Part shown: piece after piece, positions 13,813 through 49,908 of the stretch
Layout of the letters: each line of letters starts with the position of its first letter
How positions within the stretch are numbered: position 1 is the stretch's first letter
Assembly (NCBI GenBank): GCA_030427505.1
Contig: JAUICH010000001.1
Span: forward strand, 310,001-374,000
Length of the DNA stretch: 64,000 bases
Source: Verrucomicrobiia bacterium
GTDB lineage: Bacteria; Verrucomicrobiota; Verrucomicrobiia; Verrucomicrobiales; DEV007
Direction: 5' to 3'
Notes under the pieces: generated by a model
The model's database searches: none
What the model saw: only the letters and a program-made list of their open reading frames with translations
Told to the model about the DNA's origin: nothing
Program-made: the position numbers and the translations under genes

Positions 13813-13830
13813 CCGGGAAGTTAGGTGATC

Positions 13831-14018
13831 GGGTGGATCGGGTGGATCGGGTGGATCGGGTGGATCGGGTGGATCGGGTGGATCGGGTGGATCGGGTGGA
13901 TCGGGTGGATCGGGTGGATCGGGTGGATCGGGTGGATCGGGTGGACCGGGTGGACCGGGTGGACCGGGTGGACCGGGTGGACCGGGTGGACCGGGTGGAC
14001 CGGGTGGACCGGGTGGAC
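13831..14018 (+). repeat. 9-bp minisatellite in two homogenised blocks
   Basis: Twelve perfect copies of GGGTGGATC (13831-13938) are followed by eight copies of GGGTGGACC (13939-14010) and a final truncated unit. The single-base switch from T to C divides the array into two uniform blocks. A degenerate unit precedes the array. Confidence 0.95.
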
Positions 14019-14336: not shown

Positions 14337-15044
14337 ATGATGCCGTCAGCGGAAAGCCGGCGACTCGTGAAGGAATTGTTACATTGGAACGACCCAGTGC
14401 CGCGTGACGGGGCCCTGAATATGGCCATCGACGAATGTCTGGCCCGTCAGTTGGATCAGCCTCTGCTGCGGCTGTATCGCTGGGCGGAGCCGGTCTTCAG
14501 CATGGGGTATTTTTTCCCCTGGGAAGCCGCGGCCGCCGAAGTGCCTGGAGGCGTTTCCCTGGTCCGGCGCTGGACGGGTGGCGGGCTGGTGGACCATCGC
14601 CGTGACCGGACGTTTACGCTTTTTCTGCCCCGGCCGGGTTTCGAGCATCTAATGACGGCGGGTATGTCGTATAGATGGGTCCACGAGTGTCTGGCTGCCG
14701 CGCTGCGGCAGACCGGAGTGGAGGCAACGCTGGTGGCGGAATCCGTTTCCACCGGTGGGAATCGAGAAAATGGAAGCTGTTTTGAAAGACCTGTTACCTG
14801 GGATGTGGTGCTGGAGAACGGAGAAAAACTGGCCGGGGGCGCGCAGCGCCGCACCCGGAATGGCCTGCTGCACCAGGGCAGCGTTCAGGCGCCGGACAAC
14901 GGATGGGAGGACTTTTTTGTAAAGATGCTGGCGGAAGAGTCCGAATGCTTCAAATCTTGGGAACCTTCGGAGGAAATCCTGACGGAAGCCCAAATCCTGA
15001 CAGACACCCGGTACGGAACGGGTGAATGGCTCAGAAAGTTTTGA
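14337..15044 (+). CDS. Lipoate-protein ligase A family protein
   Basis: A 235-residue BPL/LplA/LipB-fold protein. It has the substrate-binding motif RRWTGGGLVDH (78-87) and the catalytic Lys region GEKLAGGAQRRTRNGLLHQG (K164), both as in lipoate-protein ligase A. An N-terminal segment like ALNMAIDECLA is also typical. Such enzymes attach lipoate or octanoate to E2 and H proteins. The only lipoyl protein in the window is SucB at 41108. It begins with tandem ATG codons at 14337 and 14340. The degenerate xanthine dehydrogenase-like pair starts 94 bp downstream on the same strand. The family also includes octanoyl transferases, so exact activity is uncertain. Confidence 0.85.
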   Translation: MMPSAESRRLVKELLHWNDPVPRDGALNMAIDECLARQLDQPLLRLYRWAEPVFSMGYFFPWEAAAAEVPGGVSLVRRWTGGGLVDHRRDRTFTLFLPRPGFEHLMTAGMSYRWVHECLAAALRQTGVEATLVAESVSTGGNRENGSCFERPVTWDVVLENGEKLAGGAQRRTRNGLLHQGSVQAPDNGWEDFFVKMLAEESECFKSWEPSEEILTEAQILTDTRYGTGEWLRKF

Positions 15045-15138: not shown

Positions 15139-16692
15139 ATGCAGGGATGGTTTCGCCTTGAGGTTAATGGGCAGGATACTCGTGTCGAAGGAGTCGACGC
15201 AGGTCTCTCTCTGGGCAGGTATTTAAGAGAGCGCGGGTTGATCCCGGACTGGGTGCCGGGTCTGGCGAACAGTGGCCCCTTGGTGCTGATGGCGGACGCG
15301 GACGCGGGGGGATTGCTGACCTACCGCAGCGTGGATGGCGCCCGGTTGAAAATGCCTCAGCTGGCCGGGCGTTCGGTGCTGACGCCGGACTTCCTGTCGC
15401 AGGCCTTTCCGGATCACCCGGTGTCCAAGAGTCTCGCCCGCCTGCCCTGCATGGAGGCAACGGTGCTGGGCCGGTCCAATCTCGCCGCGCTGCTCTGGGA
15501 GGCCTACTACCGGCGCGATCTGCGGGCGGTAGGCCAGTTGGAAGAGCAGTTCGACGGCTGGATTTCGCGCAGCGCGGACTATTACTCCCTCCGCGCGGCG
15601 GGTTTGCAGGTTCTGTCCGTGGCGGCCCGCCGCCGCCAGGAGGCCGGCCAAATGGAGGCCCACTGGGAAGAGATATCCGAAGCCTGGCTGGTGAACCGCT
15701 TTGGGGAACGGTTTCGCGGACTGGACGAGATTCACTATGTCGACCCGGCAAAGCGCCGGTATTACCGTCCGCTGACGCTTTTTGAATGCCAGACCCTGCG
15801 CCGTCAATATACGGAGGCCGTGACGGTATCCGGCATTTCGCCGGGCATCGGAGACCGCGACTGCTGCATCAGCCTGGACGGCGTGGTGGAACTGCGGCAG
15901 ATCGTGGAGCGGGAGGAGGGCTACTGGGAGATCGGTGGCGCGGCGCCCCTGACGCAGGTGGCGGAGCGGCTGGCGGAGTCTCTGCCGGTTCTTTCCGAGG
16001 CGATTGTGAACCAGGATTTCCGTCCGGCGCGAAACCTCATATCCATGGGCGGTTTCCTGACTTCCGCGCCATCGTTTGGCGGACTGGTGCCCGCGTTGAT
16101 GGCTTTGGACGCCATTGTCCGCCTCCAGGCGGTCGACCGGAGCGAGCGGGATGTGCCGGTCAGCGCTTTTCTGGAGTTTCCGGCACGGCCCGAGATCCGG
16201 GAGGGTGAGTTTATCCGTAGTGTGCTGGTGCCCGACTTTTCCCAGGAAACCATCAAGCGCCGGGGCGCCCGCCGCCGGCTCTGCCGCGGCTACCGGATTT
16301 CCCGCCGCGCGGCATATCACCCCGGCAGGATCGACGCCGTCTTTGCGGTGGAGTTGACCGATCAGAACATCATCAGCGATGCCTGGCTGGCCTACTCAGG
16401 AGTGCTGGACCGTCCCGGCCGGGCTCGCCGGACGGAGCAAAAGCTGGAAGGGAAACCCTGGGGGGAAGATACCATCGTCAATGCCCTGGACACCCTGACC
16501 AACGACATGGCCTCGCGGGAGCTGAACCGGCCGGAGATGAACGCGGACTACCTGGGGCAGATGGCGACGACCTTGTTTCAGCGGTTTTTCTACGAACACC
16601 GGGAACCCAGGACGGGATGGCAGCCGCTCTCCATGACGGATGAGCTGCTGGCGGAAAAATCGCCTTTTATTGATACTGTGACCGGCGGTTGA
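15139..16692 (+). CDS. Degenerate xanthine dehydrogenase small-subunit-like protein (FeS/FAD region)
   Basis: A 517-residue protein co-linear with XdhA (2Fe-2S domain, linker, FAD-binding domain, CO-dehydrogenase flavoprotein C-terminal domain), but lacking key cofactor residues. HPVSKSLARLPCMEAT (93-108) sits where XDH has HPVQ...QCGFCTPG, and LEEQFDGWISRSADYY (134-149) where it has the NLCRCTGY block. Seven or all eight cluster cysteines are gone. The FAD pyrophosphate loop GGTD is replaced by ISPGIGD (232-239), and GTLGGNIA by ISMGGFLT (301-308). The C-terminal domain retains GYRISRRAAYHPGRIDAVFA, matching the family KxSKRxxxDIA block. I infer a non-enzymatic or re-purposed protein. The frame is intact, with the same codon style as its neighbours. 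Partner gene begins 48 bp downstream. Confidence 0.8.
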   Translation: MQGWFRLEVNGQDTRVEGVDAGLSLGRYLRERGLIPDWVPGLANSGPLVLMADADAGGLLTYRSVDGARLKMPQLAGRSVLTPDFLSQAFPDHPVSKSLARLPCMEATVLGRSNLAALLWEAYYRRDLRAVGQLEEQFDGWISRSADYYSLRAAGLQVLSVAARRRQEAGQMEAHWEEISEAWLVNRFGERFRGLDEIHYVDPAKRRYYRPLTLFECQTLRRQYTEAVTVSGISPGIGDRDCCISLDGVVELRQIVEREEGYWEIGGAAPLTQVAERLAESLPVLSEAIVNQDFRPARNLISMGGFLTSAPSFGGLVPALMALDAIVRLQAVDRSERDVPVSAFLEFPARPEIREGEFIRSVLVPDFSQETIKRRGARRRLCRGYRISRRAAYHPGRIDAVFAVELTDQNIISDAWLAYSGVLDRPGRARRTEQKLEGKPWGEDTIVNALDTLTNDMASRELNRPEMNADYLGQMATTLFQRFFYEHREPRTGWQPLSMTDELLAEKSPFIDTVTGG

Positions 16693-16740
16693 TTCCCTGA
16701 CCGGGAAGCTGGACCGCCAGCGGACATCGCGCATCCTATC

Positions 16741-19047
16741 ATGATGGACTGGAATGGAAGCACCCCGGCGAACCGGCAGCATTGCGTCTATGCGTTGCCG
16801 GTGGGGGCGCCGTGCGCCAGCGCCAACCTGGCCCAACTGGACTCCGGGCGTGCCCGGGACGTGGACGGCGTCCTGGGGGTGTTCTTCGCCTCGGACATTC
16901 CGGGGATCAATTCCATCCAGACCGAGCGTGGCAACGACCCCCTCTTGGCGGAGGGCGAGGTGACGTACGCGGGCCAGCCGGTCTGCGTGGTCCTGGGCCG
17001 TTCGCCGGAGGCCTGCCGGAACGGAGCGGAGGCGCTGAACATCGAGTTTCACCCTCTGGCCTCGATCCTGGATCTGGATCACGCCCGCGCCATGCAGACG
17101 TATGAAAAGGAGCCCCAGGTGCTAAGCCGTGGGGACATCCAGGAATGGCTCGGCCCAGGGGAGCCAGTCCTGACCGGCAGCGTCTCGCTGGAAACGCAGT
17201 TGCCCTTTCCCAGCACGGCGATTGTCGCGCGTTGCCGCCGCCGGCCCGATGGCCGGGTGGACCTGGAGGTGAACGGTGGCATTCCCTCCGACATCCGCTC
17301 CGTGGTCAGCCGCATCATGCGCATTCCCGAGTCCCGTGTGTTTGTGAACTACGAGCCCGTGGCCAGTTGCGCGGACGGCGGGGAGCGGGTGGCCCGGATG
17401 GCGGCGGGGCTGGTGGCCCTGGCGGCTACCCGGACGACCGACGAAGTCAGTCTGGTGGTGGACCGCGAATGGGATACCCTGCACCGGTCCAAACGCCGGG
17501 CCGTCTATGCCAAGTATGAGGTTAGCTGCGATGAGGAAGGGCGCCTCATGGCGGTGAATATTGACTACCTTCTGGAGGCGGGACACATCCTGGACGAATC
17601 TCAGCCCGCGCTGGACCGGCTGCTCCTCCACTCGGATGGCGCCTACTACATTCCGAATTTTTGCGCGAGCGCCCGGCTCTGCAAAACCAACTACGTAGCC
17701 GGTTCCGATCTCGCCGCCGAAGGCTCCGCTCAGGGTTCCTTTGTTATCGAAGAAATCCTGAGTCACGTGGCCCAACATCTAGGGTTGTCTCCGGAGCGGG
17801 TTCGCGCCGCAAATTTCTACCGGGAAGAGGAGGAGTATTCCAAGACCCCGTACGGCCAGCGGGCTCCCGCGGGGTTGATCTCCCGCATCTGGCGGGAGAC
17901 GCTGACGCTGGCCGAGCTGGAAGTGCGCCGGGAAGAGATCCGCAACTGGAACGCGGAGCATCCCTACTTCAAACGCGGAATCGGCATGATTCCAGTGAAG
18001 CTGGGCGTTGGCGATCCCCGGACCGAACGGAATCAAGCAACCGCGGGCCTTCAGATGTTGCCGGATGGCAGCGTGCGCGCCTGGGCGGGTCTGATTGACA
18101 ACGGAGAGCCCTGGCGGGTGCGCATTGCCGAAACGGTGTGCCGGAACCTGGGCCTGGAGCCGGACCGCGTCTGGGTCACCGCGCCGCACTCCGACTCCGG
18201 CATTCGGAACGCCGCCAGCCTGGGGGTGGACCCCGTTCACTTGGCGTCCCAAGCCGTCAGGGAGGCTTGCCGCCAGATCAAGCAGCGGCTCCGCACCGTG
18301 GCCGGGCAGATGCTGGCCGCCTCCGGCCAGTCCAGCTTCGAGGTGGAAGACATCCGCTTTGGAGACGGCTGGGTGTACGTGGGGCCGAACCCCTCCAGCG
18401 GTTTCCGGCTGGAGGAAGTGAGCGCGGAAGCGCGCCGCCGCCGCGTGGACCTGGGCGCCACCGGGCACTTCCGGACCCCGAATCTATTGTGGAACCCCGC
18501 TGCTGGCGAAGGGTCTCCATTCGAGGACTTTGCCGTGGGCGCCGCCGTCTGCGAAGTAGAGCTGGATGCCTTCTCCGGAGAGTGCCGCCTGTTGCGGACT
18601 GAGATCGTGCACGACGCCGGAGATTCGTCCAGCCCGGCCTGCGACCGTGGGGTGATCGCCCGCGGTTTCGCCTTTGGCTACGGGTGGCTGTTCTCCGAAT
18701 CCCTCGGATGGACGGCGGACGGCACCCTCACTCAGGATGCGCTGGACAGCTATGCCTTGCCCGGTTACTCAGACACGCCGCTGGCCTACCGGATTGCGTT
18801 GTTGAGAACCTCAGGTGTTTCCCCGGATGGCGGCGAAGGTGGCCGGGCGGCGCGTTCCCTGCGGGAGTCGCCCGTGGTCCTCTCTCTGGCCGCCCGGGAA
18901 GCGGTAAAAGACGCCCTGCGGTCCTTTGGCGCCCCCCCAGGGCTGGTGGTGAATCTCTCGTTTCCCTGTTCGCCCTCCGCGGTGATGAACGCGCTTCGCG
19001 ATCTCGCGCAGAGGGTGGTCAGCCACGGCAGGCCCCGAGCTTCCTGA
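16741..19047 (+). CDS. Degenerate xanthine dehydrogenase large-subunit-like protein (molybdopterin region)
   Basis: A 768-residue full-length homologue of XdhB. Matching blocks include DVDGVLGVFFASDIPGIN, AGQPVCVVLGRS, LDRLLLHSDGAYYIPNF, PYGQRAPAG, FKRGIGMIPVKLGVG (family KRGxxxxPVKFG), FRTPNLLWNP and EIVHDAGDSSSPACDRG. The molybdenum-cofactor signatures are lost: GGGFGGKE reads CADGGERV (210-217), the AFRGFGGPQG loop reads DLAAEGSAQG (323-332), and EMGQG reads IDNGEPWR. The GEPP segment reads RESP, where the catalytic Glu may survive. Known XDH hydroxylates purines using molybdopterin, and this protein is unlikely to bind it in the usual way. Probably co-transcribed with the gene at 15139. 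Confidence 0.8.
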   Translation: MMDWNGSTPANRQHCVYALPVGAPCASANLAQLDSGRARDVDGVLGVFFASDIPGINSIQTERGNDPLLAEGEVTYAGQPVCVVLGRSPEACRNGAEALNIEFHPLASILDLDHARAMQTYEKEPQVLSRGDIQEWLGPGEPVLTGSVSLETQLPFPSTAIVARCRRRPDGRVDLEVNGGIPSDIRSVVSRIMRIPESRVFVNYEPVASCADGGERVARMAAGLVALAATRTTDEVSLVVDREWDTLHRSKRRAVYAKYEVSCDEEGRLMAVNIDYLLEAGHILDESQPALDRLLLHSDGAYYIPNFCASARLCKTNYVAGSDLAAEGSAQGSFVIEEILSHVAQHLGLSPERVRAANFYREEEEYSKTPYGQRAPAGLISRIWRETLTLAELEVRREEIRNWNAEHPYFKRGIGMIPVKLGVGDPRTERNQATAGLQMLPDGSVRAWAGLIDNGEPWRVRIAETVCRNLGLEPDRVWVTAPHSDSGIRNAASLGVDPVHLASQAVREACRQIKQRLRTVAGQMLAASGQSSFEVEDIRFGDGWVYVGPNPSSGFRLEEVSAEARRRRVDLGATGHFRTPNLLWNPAAGEGSPFEDFAVGAAVCEVELDAFSGECRLLRTEIVHDAGDSSSPACDRGVIARGFAFGYGWLFSESLGWTADGTLTQDALDSYALPGYSDTPLAYRIALLRTSGVSPDGGEGGRAARSLRESPVVLSLAAREAVKDALRSFGAPPGLVVNLSFPCSPSAVMNALRDLAQRVVSHGRPRAS

Positions 19048-46716: not shown

Positions 46717-49700
46717 TTACTGCTTCTTCGCTTCCTCCGCGGCGGCTTTTTCCGCGTCGCCACTTTCCTGTTTCGGAAGCATGGCCAGATACTGGGCCTT
46801 CAGTTCCTCAATCTTCTTCTGCTGGGCGGCCAGTTCCGCCTCGTGCTTCTTGAGAACTTCTTCCGCCTTCTTGCGGTCGGCTTCTTTCTGGTCCTCCGTC
46901 TTGGAACGCTCGTTGATTACCGCCGGAGTGGTCTTGGCCACTTCGCTGGCTTCCGCGATCGCTTTCTCCCGGTCCGCGGCTTCTTTGTATGCCTGCTGGA
47001 TAAAGGACTGTAGCTTGCCAAGCCGTTCTTCCATGGCGGCCACCTGTCCGGAAATGGAGTCGGCGTTGGCCTGGTCCGCCTTGGCGGCTTTTTCCTGGGC
47101 CAGTTTCAGCGCGGTTTCCAGGACTTCCGTGGTCTTGGACGCAAGCGCCTTCTCATTGTCTTCGATGGTCTTCTGAGCCTTCTGCAAGGTGGCTTTGGCA
47201 TCGGCCAGGTCTTTCTCCGCCGCCTGATGGGCCGCCAGCGCGTCGGTGGCGGTTTGCTTGGCGGATTCGAGTTCCATCTCCATCTGCTCCAGGGCTTCCG
47301 AGGACTGGTGAGCTTCCAGGTTCAGAGCCTCAGCCTTGTACTTCTTCACCCGGTATTCGTTCCAGGCCAGGTCCTGCTGAGCTTTATCCAGGGCCTTCTT
47401 GGCTTCGGCGGCCTTGGAGGCCATGTTCTGGTAGTTCTTCTCGGCGGCTTCCTTTTCCTTGGCCATCTTGTCTGCGTCGGAAGCGGCGTTCTGCGCTTGT
47501 TTCTCAGCGGCGGCCAGCTTCGGCTTCATGTCGTCCATGGCCTTGTTCTGCTGAGCGACCAGACCCTGAGCTTTGCCCAGTTCCGCCTTGGCGACGGCTT
47601 CGGCGTCCTGCGCGGCCTTCATCTGAGCCTCACCGGTTTGAATGGCCTTGGTGGCGGCGGCGAGCTTGTCTTGAGCTTCTTTCAGGGCCTTGGCGCCGGC
47701 CTGTTGATCCGCGGTCTGCTTGGCGAGCGCGGCCTGGGCTGCTTTTTCCTTCGCCACGGCATCGGCTTCCGCTTTCTGCAGGGGCTGCAACTGGGCGGCC
47801 ACTTCACTCAGGCGTTTACTAGTGGCTGCCAGTTGGGCATCCGCTTCTTTCAGTTCCTGTGCCGCCGCCTTGTGCGCGGCCACCAGTTCCGCCGCGTTCG
47901 CGGCTTTGGCTTCGGTGGCGGCCTTGGCCTTGGCTTCCGCGTCTTGGACCTTTTTCTTCAGCGCGTTCACTTGCTGTTGCGCCTGGCCGTGCGCGCTCTT
48001 CACGCTCTGGTGCGCCGTGGTGGCGTCCGCCAGGGACTTCTTGAGCTGCTCGTCCACCTTCGCGCCGGCGGCGGCTTTCTTCGCGGCTTCCAGGGCGGCA
48101 GCCAGCTTATTGGCGGCGTCCTGACGCTTCGGCAGTTCGGCCTGCCACTTTTTCATTTCCGCCTGAGCGGCCTGCACGGCCTGGCTGGCGGCTTGCACCG
48201 CGGCGGTGCGCTTCGCGAGTTCGCCCTGCTTGGCGGCCAAGGTCTGCTGCGCCTGCTTTTGAGCGGCGGCGATCTGGTCCGCCTGGCTCTTCACCGCGCC
48301 CAGTTCCTTTTCCATTTCCGCCTGGCGGGCTGCAGCGGCGGCGGCGGCCTTGCGGGCTTCTTCCATGGCGGAACGCGCGGAATCGGTCTGGGTGGAGGCG
48401 ACCTTGATGCTCTCCTGAAGTTTCGGGAACGTGCCGTTCAGCTCGCTGATCCGCTTTTCGGAGTAGACAATCTGTTCCGAAATGGGGCGCGGATTGACTT
48501 CGATGGAGGCCAGTTCTTCACCGTTGGCCGCGTTCCAGATTTTCACCTTCCCATTGTAGTCGCCGCTGATCACGCGCTGGCTGTCATTGGAAAACACCGC
48601 GCTCATCACGATGTCATCAGAGGCATTGATGGTCCGCTCTGCATTTCCGTCTGCTTTCCAAATCTTCACCGTTTTATCCCGGCCACAGGAAACCAGGCGG
48701 CCGTCGGGAGCGAAGTCCACGCTCATCACGCCTCCGGCGTGGGCGGTCCATTTTTTGACCTGCTTGCCCTCCTTCATCTCCCACATGATGATGGAGCCAT
48801 CTTCACTGGCAGAAGCCAGGACATTGGAGTCCGCCCGCCAGGAGATATCCGTGACGGCGGCGGTGTGGCCTTTCAGGTTCCAGAATTCCATGCCGGTGGG
48901 ACCTTCCCAGACGTAGAGGTCCGCGTTCCGTCCCCCGGTGGCGAAAAGCACGCCATCCGGGCTGAAGTCCGCCGTCAGCATCCAGTCCGGATGCTTCTTG
49001 ATGGTGTCGGTCTGTTCGCCCGTGGTGGTGTCCCACAGCTTTATGTTCTTTCCGGGACCACCCAGCACGACCTTGCGGTGGTCCGGGCTGATGTCCGCGC
49101 CCAGCACGGTGTCGAACTCTTTTCCGACTTCGATCACCCGCTGGCCCGTCTTGACGTCCCAGGCCACGGCGTTGCCGTTCTTGCCGCCCCGGCCCCCGCC
49201 GCAGAGCAGCAGGCTGCCGTTTTGGCTGAAGTTCAGGACTTCCGGAAACCCTTCCGGGTAGGGCAGCACGCCGAGCAGTTCACCCGTTGCGCTATGGAAG
49301 AGCAGCACCTGCTTCTGACCGCCCACCGCCACGATCGGCGCCCAGGGACTGTGTGCCATGGCCACGACCGTGTCTGGCCGGTCTGTGACGACTTCGGGTT
49401 CCAGGAGGAGATGCTGAGGCATCGGCGGCGCCCCTTCGGGTTTGAACGAGTTCGCGTTCGTCAAACTCATGTCCAGCTTCGGCTTGTCGCTCTTTTTCGC
49501 GGTGGAGCCGTCGTGCTCCAGGATGCCTCCCAGAATCCACTTCTTGATGATTTCCAGCTCCGCTTCCGGACGGACCGGTTTTTCCGGCGGCATGTGGGGC
49601 TCTTCCTTGTGGGTCATCAAGGTGAAGAGCCGGCTGCCGTCCGGGTTTTCCGGGTCGATGATGCTGCCGCCGCTACCGCCTGTCAGGGTGGCGCCATAGG

Positions 49701-49908
49701 TGGAAAGATCCAGACCGCCCTTTGCCTCGTCGGGGTTGTGACAGTTCAAACAGTTGTTCTCAAAAATGGGCATCACATGGTCACGGTAGGTGACCTTGTC
49801 TTCCTTCTTGGCGTCGGCGGCGAAGGAGGTCGCTCCGGACGTGGCCAGAATGGCGGCGCCTGACACGGCGAGCCGGAAGAATGAGGAGGCGAGGGTACTC
49901 TTGCTCAT
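46717..49908 (-). CDS. Secreted c-type cytochrome with WD40 propeller and long coiled coil
   Basis: A 1063-residue exported protein (signal MSKSTLASSFFRLAVSGAAILATSGATSFA). The N-terminal cytochrome domain of the planctomycete PSCyt1 type has one CXXCH (C53LNCH57) with a typical NPDEAKGGLDLST and MPP..EKPVRPEAELEIIKKWI. About residues 180-475 form WD40 repeats (for example VAMAHSPWAPIVAVGGQ, VTDISWRADSNVLASASEDGSIIMWEMKEGK). The last 580 residues are an Ala/Lys/Glu/Gln-rich coiled coil with almost no interruptions. Such architectures are common in PVC bacteria and their function is not established. Function here unknown. Confidence 0.88.
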   Translation of the reverse strand: MSKSTLASSFFRLAVSGAAILATSGATSFAADAKKEDKVTYRDHVMPIFENNCLNCHNPDEAKGGLDLSTYGATLTGGSGGSIIDPENPDGSRLFTLMTHKEEPHMPPEKPVRPEAELEIIKKWILGGILEHDGSTAKKSDKPKLDMSLTNANSFKPEGAPPMPQHLLLEPEVVTDRPDTVVAMAHSPWAPIVAVGGQKQVLLFHSATGELLGVLPYPEGFPEVLNFSQNGSLLLCGGGRGGKNGNAVAWDVKTGQRVIEVGKEFDTVLGADISPDHRKVVLGGPGKNIKLWDTTTGEQTDTIKKHPDWMLTADFSPDGVLFATGGRNADLYVWEGPTGMEFWNLKGHTAAVTDISWRADSNVLASASEDGSIIMWEMKEGKQVKKWTAHAGGVMSVDFAPDGRLVSCGRDKTVKIWKADGNAERTINASDDIVMSAVFSNDSQRVISGDYNGKVKIWNAANGEELASIEVNPRPISEQIVYSEKRISELNGTFPKLQESIKVASTQTDSARSAMEEARKAAAAAAARQAEMEKELGAVKSQADQIAAAQKQAQQTLAAKQGELAKRTAAVQAASQAVQAAQAEMKKWQAELPKRQDAANKLAAALEAAKKAAAGAKVDEQLKKSLADATTAHQSVKSAHGQAQQQVNALKKKVQDAEAKAKAATEAKAANAAELVAAHKAAAQELKEADAQLAATSKRLSEVAAQLQPLQKAEADAVAKEKAAQAALAKQTADQQAGAKALKEAQDKLAAATKAIQTGEAQMKAAQDAEAVAKAELGKAQGLVAQQNKAMDDMKPKLAAAEKQAQNAASDADKMAKEKEAAEKNYQNMASKAAEAKKALDKAQQDLAWNEYRVKKYKAEALNLEAHQSSEALEQMEMELESAKQTATDALAAHQAAEKDLADAKATLQKAQKTIEDNEKALASKTTEVLETALKLAQEKAAKADQANADSISGQVAAMEERLGKLQSFIQQAYKEAADREKAIAEASEVAKTTPAVINERSKTEDQKEADRKKAEEVLKKHEAELAAQQKKIEELKAQYLAMLPKQESGDAEKAAAEEAKKQ

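Follow-up and report, generated by a model that had tools for sequence, protein, structure and literature searches.

Two adjacent genes in a 64,000-nucleotide stretch of DNA from a Verrucomicrobiia bacterium (Verrucomicrobiales; DEV007; assembly GCA_030427505.1, contig JAUICH010000001.1, positions 310,001 to 374,000 of the forward strand; hereafter the window, whose own numbering is used throughout) encode homologues of the xanthine dehydrogenase (XDH) subunits XdhA and XdhB that lack the ligands of the [2Fe-2S] clusters and the binding loops of the molybdenum cofactor (Moco). From sequence comparison, and with moderate confidence, we read the pair as a pseudo-xanthine dehydrogenase that would use neither molybdenum nor iron–sulfur (Fe-S) clusters, would carry a repurposed, charged pocket, and would be a family-level feature within the Verrucomicrobiales. 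Xanthine dehydrogenase is a textbook purine-oxidizing enzyme with several cofactors. Because the residues for the [2Fe-2S] clusters and Moco are lacking, the pair should be unable to run the XDH electron chain.

The pair is predicted to retain the xanthine dehydrogenase fold

The XdhA-like subunit (517 amino acids (aa); 15139..16692, + strand, as are all features of the pair) begins with a former two-[2Fe-2S] domain (residues 1–145; 15139..15573). A helical linker at residues about 148–188 (15580..15702), recognized from the secondary structure of a model that is partly of low confidence here, leads to the flavin adenine dinucleotide (FAD) part, made up of a FAD_binding_5 domain (residues 207–366; 15757..16236; 70.4 bits) with partly eroded FAD loops and a CO_deh_flav_C domain. 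The XdhB-like subunit (768 aa; 16741..19047) contains the hammerhead domain Ald_Xan_dh_C together with MoCoBD_1 and MoCoBD_2, the latter two without Moco motifs. The NCBIfam models xdhA (residues 9–486) and xdhB (residues 23–755) matched with 111.8 and 438.5 bits, against equivalog cut-offs of 467 and 849.5. Each chain was modelled singly with AlphaFold2 (pLDDT 82.9 for the XdhA-like and 82.4 for the XdhB-like subunit), and VIA-align superposed the models on the XdhA and XdhB chains of Rhodobacter capsulatus (1jro_A: Z 34.6, root mean square deviation (rmsd) 3.0, 439 residues; 1jro_B: Z 45.7, rmsd 3.3, 728 residues). Pfam, NCBIfam and predicted fold all place both subunits in the xanthine dehydrogenase/Mo-hydroxylase fold. 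A preliminary description of this DNA had proposed two adjacent full-length XdhA and XdhB homologues of normal composition and had recommended comparison with the known structures; the open reading frames, at exactly 15139–16692 and 16741–19047, and the structural matches bear it out, as does a GC content at codon position 3 of 0.78 and 0.80, compared with 0.67–0.84 in five neighbouring genes.

Fe-S ligands and Moco loops are lost throughout the core relatives

To examine the cofactor motifs, pairs of the window's family were aligned with a reference set of 22 canonical XDHs, of which the order supplied 12 and other phyla 10 (another ten canonical loci of such phyla were left unaligned). The alignment holds 36 pseudo rows: 31 full-length core pairs, the window included, and five sister rows (L055, L057, L059, L060 and L125). 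Loci reached twice on the same contig were entered once. The distant L073 was left out, and rows were dropped as fragments (L120, L122, L127, L131, L132), as truncated (L110) or as distant (L126, L128, L130, L133). L116, whose XdhB is truncated, was excluded from the tree and from the 31-row counts; its XdhA has lost the cysteines too.

A functional XdhAB holds two [2Fe-2S] clusters by eight cysteines. Among the nine Fe-S columns of the alignment, the window has no Cys (0/9), each of the core rows has 0–2 (one isolated Cys is retained in 24 of 31), and all 22 canonical rows have 8 or 9. Ligand sets are thus absent from 31/31 core pairs and from 0/22 canonical XDHs. Neither Fer2 nor Fer2_2 gave a Pfam match in the window pair up to E = 1. 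At the genome level, Fer2_2 was absent from all 23 core-type genomes tested (22 with an aligned pair and G047 without one; the XdhC tests below used the same set) and present in 11/11 canonical genomes. G101 and G092, the sisters in which the cysteines survive, each had a single match, and G121 and G027 had none.

The Moco side has fared similarly. GGGFGGKE, FRGFGGPQG, GISFT, MGQG and TSATAASSGSD are replaced in 31/31 core pairs and present with small variants in 22/22 canonical XDHs. In the window, the former GGGFGGKE loop (residues 207–217; 17359..17391) keeps E215, the former FRGFGGPQG loop reads AAEGSAQG (17713..17736), the former GISFT loop reads GVGDPRTERN (18004..18033), and the former EMGQG loop (18097..18111) has an acidic residue, E456, in place of its Gln. 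The former TSATAASSGSD loop (18205..18240) reads RNAASLGVDPVH and is often ATPVIGTDAAG-like in relatives. The QG motif is FG in the window, and its Gln survives in 2 of the 31 core rows. The window pair therefore has none of the Moco-binding loops of a functional XdhAB (GGGFGG, FRGFGGPQG, MGQG, TSATAAS and QG). The equivalent of the catalytic glutamate of such an enzyme (bovine Glu1261) is present: E709, in the sequence RESP (18865..18867), is Glu in 31/31 core and 22/22 canonical rows. The absence of 2Fe-2S cysteines asserted in the preliminary description is confirmed. Its statement that the molybdopterin motifs are missing holds for the five loops and fails for the glutamate of GEPP, which E709 preserves.

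Selection on the pair

XdhA-like profile matches were found in 49 of 74 genomes of the family (30 of the 41 better genomes), and no listed match contained an internal stop. Eleven core species pairs yielded 22 estimates of the ratio of nonsynonymous to synonymous substitution rates (dN/dS, Nei–Gojobori), of which 17 were finite, at 0.045–0.189, and five were saturated; five canonical pairs gave 0.082–0.200 and two sister pairs 0.148–0.273. Because the window copy proved to lack a close relative among the sequences found, selection on it was gauged through conservation. Of the columns that do not vary among the other 30 core rows, it keeps 50/54 in XdhB and 38/44 in XdhA, although it matches the consensus at only 298/758 XdhB and 194/507 XdhA compared columns. 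These data support the view that the pair is kept by purifying selection and is not decaying. Loss of ligands combined with purifying selection across species, as measured by dN/dS in relatives of the window copy, is the pattern expected of a pseudoenzyme. The preliminary description had argued for selection and for a change of function, and had called for an orthologue search and dN/dS estimates; orthologues across the family, low dN/dS in relatives and conserved replacement motifs agree with both of its arguments.

The former Moco/substrate pocket

In bovine xanthine oxidoreductase, the role of base falls to Glu1261 and the purine is bound by Glu802 and Arg880 (PMC3624778, PMC4334109); the active-site residues include Gln767 and Phe914 (PMC3909206). 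Pocket residues of the pair were assigned by alignment and spacing: E215 falls in the same column as R. capsulatus residue 232 (bovine Glu802), and R293, 78 residues past the Glu802 position, is the counterpart of Arg880. For Phe1009, Arg912, Gln1040 and Gln1194 we use what we take to be their numbering and place in the bovine sequence; the FRGFGG loop holds Arg912 and Phe914, and Phe914 and Phe1009 presumably form the aromatic clamp of XDH.

Two polar contacts are nearly universal in the core, Q153 (Gln767) in 30/31 rows and E709 in all 31. The clamp of a functional XdhAB is gone: the Phe914 position is Glu in 31/31 core rows (E327 in the window) and the Phe1009 position Asp in 30/31 (D425), both being Phe in 22/22 canonical rows. 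Likewise, the Gln1040 position (E456) is Asp or Glu in 30/31 core rows and Gln in every canonical row, and R427 and R430, in the former GISFT loop, are each found in 28/31. Among 229 XdhB columns invariant in canonical XDHs, 88 are kept in the core, 23 have switched to another conserved residue and 26 are relaxed. Newly fixed acids fall inside the old Moco/substrate loops (96 of 753 columns) in 5 of 7 cases (indicative p = 5e-4), and newly fixed basic residues in 3 of 5 (indicative p = 0.017); other gains were not enriched there (glycine 1/4, hydrophobic 2/9, polar 0/3).

We propose that the XdhA-like and XdhB-like subunits would form an XdhAB-like complex that would work through the vacated Moco/substrate cavity. 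This cavity would keep the polar substrate contacts Q153, E215, R293 and E709, would have its aromatic clamps swapped for the acids E327 and D425, and would have gained E429, D/E456 and D497 with R427, R430 and R641. Most simply, the rebuilt cavity is perhaps a new binding site, predicted to accept a metal ion or a charged metabolite, and its role may perhaps be sensory, carrier or non-redox catalytic. A new reaction is possible given the kept catalytic glutamate.

Alternative readings

The main rival, a possible reading although one we consider unlikely, is that the pair is a pure scaffold or regulatory complex in which only the shape and surfaces of the XDH fold still matter and the old pocket plays no part. 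The fold is indeed predicted to be intact though the cofactor ligands are gone, and residues beyond the pocket are invariant. For example, the clade-specific YVDxxKxR motif of the XdhA-like subunit (residues 200–207; 15736..15759) has Y200, V201, D202, K205 and R207 each in 31/31 core rows, and any one residue in these columns is common to fewer than 70% of the 22 canonical rows. As a precedent, such a role in the secretion of milk fat has been suggested for mammalian xanthine oxidoreductase that is poor in cofactors (PMC3909206). However, an unused cavity should drift, yet the newly fixed charged residues concentrate in the cavity loops and most polar substrate contacts are retained. The conserved charged pocket thus favours a predicted ligand- or metal-binding function over a pure scaffold.

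A further proposal, which we regard as doubtful, is that the carboxylate-rich site (E215, E327, D425, E429, D/E456, D497 and E709, with R293, R427 and R430 in the same loops) would bind a metal ion or a cationic metabolite without pterin and would serve a new non-redox reaction or sensing. If so, an XDH-fold enzyme would have swapped its cofactor class.

The FAD domain raises the question of a residual flavoprotein, with FAD alone left for flavin-based redox chemistry or flavin binding, a reading that we find improbable. The FAD loops of a functional XdhAB are partly kept in the window pair, where FAD_binding_5 scores 70 bits against a cut-off of 27, and the matches span 70–129 bits across the window and the core relatives L034 and L044. 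Second-loop GG is kept in all 31 core rows, the window included; of the first-loop glycines, the window keeps one and most core rows keep them. However, the second-loop Asn is replaced in 30/31 core rows (the exception is L037) and the SPIGD part is lost, in both cases including the window, the stretch after the first loop is shorter in stripped than in canonical rows, and the Fe-S electron path is gone. Flavin binding by this domain may or may not have persisted. The preliminary description, which had the FAD loops missing altogether, was right about the Asn and SPIGD and overstated the rest.

XdhC is the Moco chaperone, and its distribution bears on a fourth reading, a genuine, highly divergent molybdenum hydroxylase in which other residues bind Moco. 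XdhC_C was present in 11/11 tested genomes with canonical XDH (best hits 99–130 bits). It gave no match in 25 of 27 genomes with a stripped or sister pair and no strong hit in any of the 27; the window genome, 96.5% complete, had no match for the chaperone family on which a functional XdhAB would rely. The two exceptions, with matches of 21–22 bits, are G089 (in a 488-aa frame) and G081 (in a 472-aa frame). Since the canonical genomes G091 and G077 show comparably weak matches, those of G089 and G081 probably represent another family. The catalytic Glu is kept, and the window genome encodes MoaC, MoeA and molybdopterin-oxidoreductase-type proteins, the presence of which also makes a lost Moco supply unlikely as the cause. 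Replaced pterin loops, missing Fe-S ligands and the lack of an XdhC match in the window genome nevertheless make a divergent molybdenum hydroxylase highly improbable. Decay of the genes after cofactor loss, to which the long branch of the window copy (1.14 changes per column) and the much shortened XdhB of L060 and L125 might point, is largely contradicted and the least probable of all, given the lack of stops in the listed matches, a dN/dS of 0.045–0.189 among core relatives and the window's agreement with 88 of 98 invariant columns.

Several observations weigh against a family-wide pseudoenzyme with a repurposed pocket. XdhA-like matches are missing from 25 of the 74 family genomes, some of them incomplete, and even the best match to the window copy in the data, at 41% identity, is not a close relative. 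The dN/dS values come from other species than the window copy, with dS >1 in many pairs. In the pocket, the Glu802 equivalent E215 is kept in 25/31 core rows and the Arg880 equivalent R293 in 27/31; chance retention of these four polar contacts is only weakly improbable (p = 0.02 in the core and 0.06 when the window is taken by itself); and the pocket pattern does not extend as a whole to the five sister rows. A further 92 of the 229 canonical-invariant XdhB columns are simply lost or variable in the core. The loops of the enrichment test were chosen with the alignment in view, so that its p values are indicative only, and these loops belong to the best-conserved parts of canonical XDH. Finally, G089 exceeds the XdhC_C cut-off once its 22-bit match is summed with its in-frame neighbours.

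Distribution and order of loss

The large subunit was used as a query against 141 genomes of the order, 54 of which contained matches, some weak. In the window's family, most of the strong matches take the form of split pairs (about 500 + 800 aa); fused proteins of about 1250 aa account for many of those in the other families. Contigs with the same pair type are metagenome-assembled genomes of Verrucomicrobiota, mostly Verrucomicrobiales, Verrucomicrobiaceae or Akkermansiaceae. Typing by genus and score, with only part of the genomes aligned, divided the 49 matching family genomes into 36 of core type and 13 of sister type (g7, g11, g13 and g41).

In an XdhB tree of 58 rows, the 36 pseudo rows lie on one side of a branch (SH-aLRT 100), and within them the 31 core rows form one clade (SH-aLRT 100). 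The window row sits on its long branch, and its position inside the core is unsure. L055 and L057 keep the eight Fe-S cysteines with most Moco loops lost (L055 still carries GGSFGGK and QG), so the Moco side went first in that branch. The Moco loops are gone from L059, L060 and L125, of which the first retains 4/9 Cys columns and the other two retain none. The simplest history that we infer is a single origin in which the Moco loops were lost first and the Fe-S ligands later and more than once. Joint loss from both subunits, as the preliminary description had it, is seen in 31/31 core pairs; L055 and L057 weaken the idea of a single step.

L060 and L125 represent a more degraded sister lineage, with XdhB-like proteins of only 582 and 569 aa. 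The MoCoBD_2 match of L060 is reduced to a remnant, and dN/dS between the two is 0.15 for XdhA and 0.23 for XdhB. In many relatives (L038–L052), the XdhB-like protein has an N-terminal extension with a basic ETFGERLRRRR motif, which the window copy lacks. In the single-contig genome G100, the XDH match (L027) holds one in-frame TAG. A strict swap of canonical XDH for the stripped pair was rejected: G151 (L173) and G167 (L172) hold both, with a canonical-looking Mo-hydroxylase beside the stripped pair and listed contamination of 5% and 4%.

Relation to known systems

The pair resembles the split XdhAB of R. capsulatus (PDB 1jro) in domain order, in a predicted fold of nearly full length, in being encoded by two adjacent genes, and in its catalytic Glu and most polar substrate contacts. 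It differs in the missing [2Fe-2S] ligands, the replaced Moco loops, the two acidic clamp positions and the lack of a strong XdhC hit in the tested stripped- or sister-pair genomes. Demolybdo milk xanthine oxidoreductase likewise combines the XDH fold with a role suggested to need no molybdenum catalysis (PMC3909206). That gene, however, keeps its active-site residues and the protein has a low cofactor content, whereas here the ligands are lost from the sequence across the family. Also among the structural matches is the XDH-family fold of a CO dehydrogenase lacking Mo-pyranopterin (PDB 1ffu, known from its title); by that title it is a form of CO dehydrogenase rather than a lineage with lost binding residues. 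Titles and abstract openings in the open-licence PMC literature yielded no paper about a pseudo-XDH.

If correct, our pseudo-XDH reading would describe an unusual, large pseudoenzyme, an XDH fold maintained by selection while its Fe-S and Moco ligands were discarded; the sister rows with Fe-S cysteines suggest the order of that loss, Moco loops and then Fe-S. Annotation by homology would name such proteins xanthine dehydrogenases and credit genomes with purine oxidation. The window genome is a case in point: in its 6.4 Mb, the stripped pair is the only MoCoBD_1 match. The conserved replacement motifs offer precise residues to test.

Neighbouring genes and other features of the window

As the preliminary description noted, a lipoate ligase-like gene precedes the pair and a sialidase follows it. 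The upstream gene (14337..15044, + strand) encodes, by Pfam and its conserved motif residues, an LplA/LipM-type ligase or transferase in which C148 and K164 are invariant across 16 rows. It adjoins the pair in 13 of 27 family regions, some of which stop at contig ends. Its profile matched 26 of 32 tested genomes, once each and often on another contig than the pair; matches also occur in seven family genomes without an XdhA-like match (G019, G031, G051, G054, G095, G098, G127) and in three canonical-XDH genomes (G064, G091, G100). Being widespread and often on another contig, it has the appearance of a general gene that lies near the pair, an association that is positional and not exclusive. 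For the same reasons, we rejected a modification of the pair by this protein, for which the invariant K205 had been one conceivable site. A LipB-type octanoyltransferase (LipB assigned by eye) is encoded in the window genome as well.

The downstream gene encodes a BNR sialidase-like protein. A link to the pair was rejected, as no relative of this sialidase, and no sialidase-like neighbour, was found in the 40 compared regions. The recurrent neighbours (a Na/H exchanger, a UbiE-like methyltransferase, a phosphodiesterase and an ABC ATPase) gave no coherent pathway. Rfam had no match at gathering scores between 12000 and 21000. Upstream of the LplA/LipM-type gene, 13827–14017 consists of 21.2 copies of the 9-bp tandem repeat GATCGGGTG (99% match), which yields WIGWIG- or PPDPPD-like open frames. 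Elsewhere in the window, 46717–49908 (− strand) encodes a 1063-aa protein in which a CxxCH haem-like motif, WD40-like repeats and a long Ala/Lys-rich coiled-coil-like part were recognized by eye, and its gene coincides with a strong AT skew at 46–50 kb.

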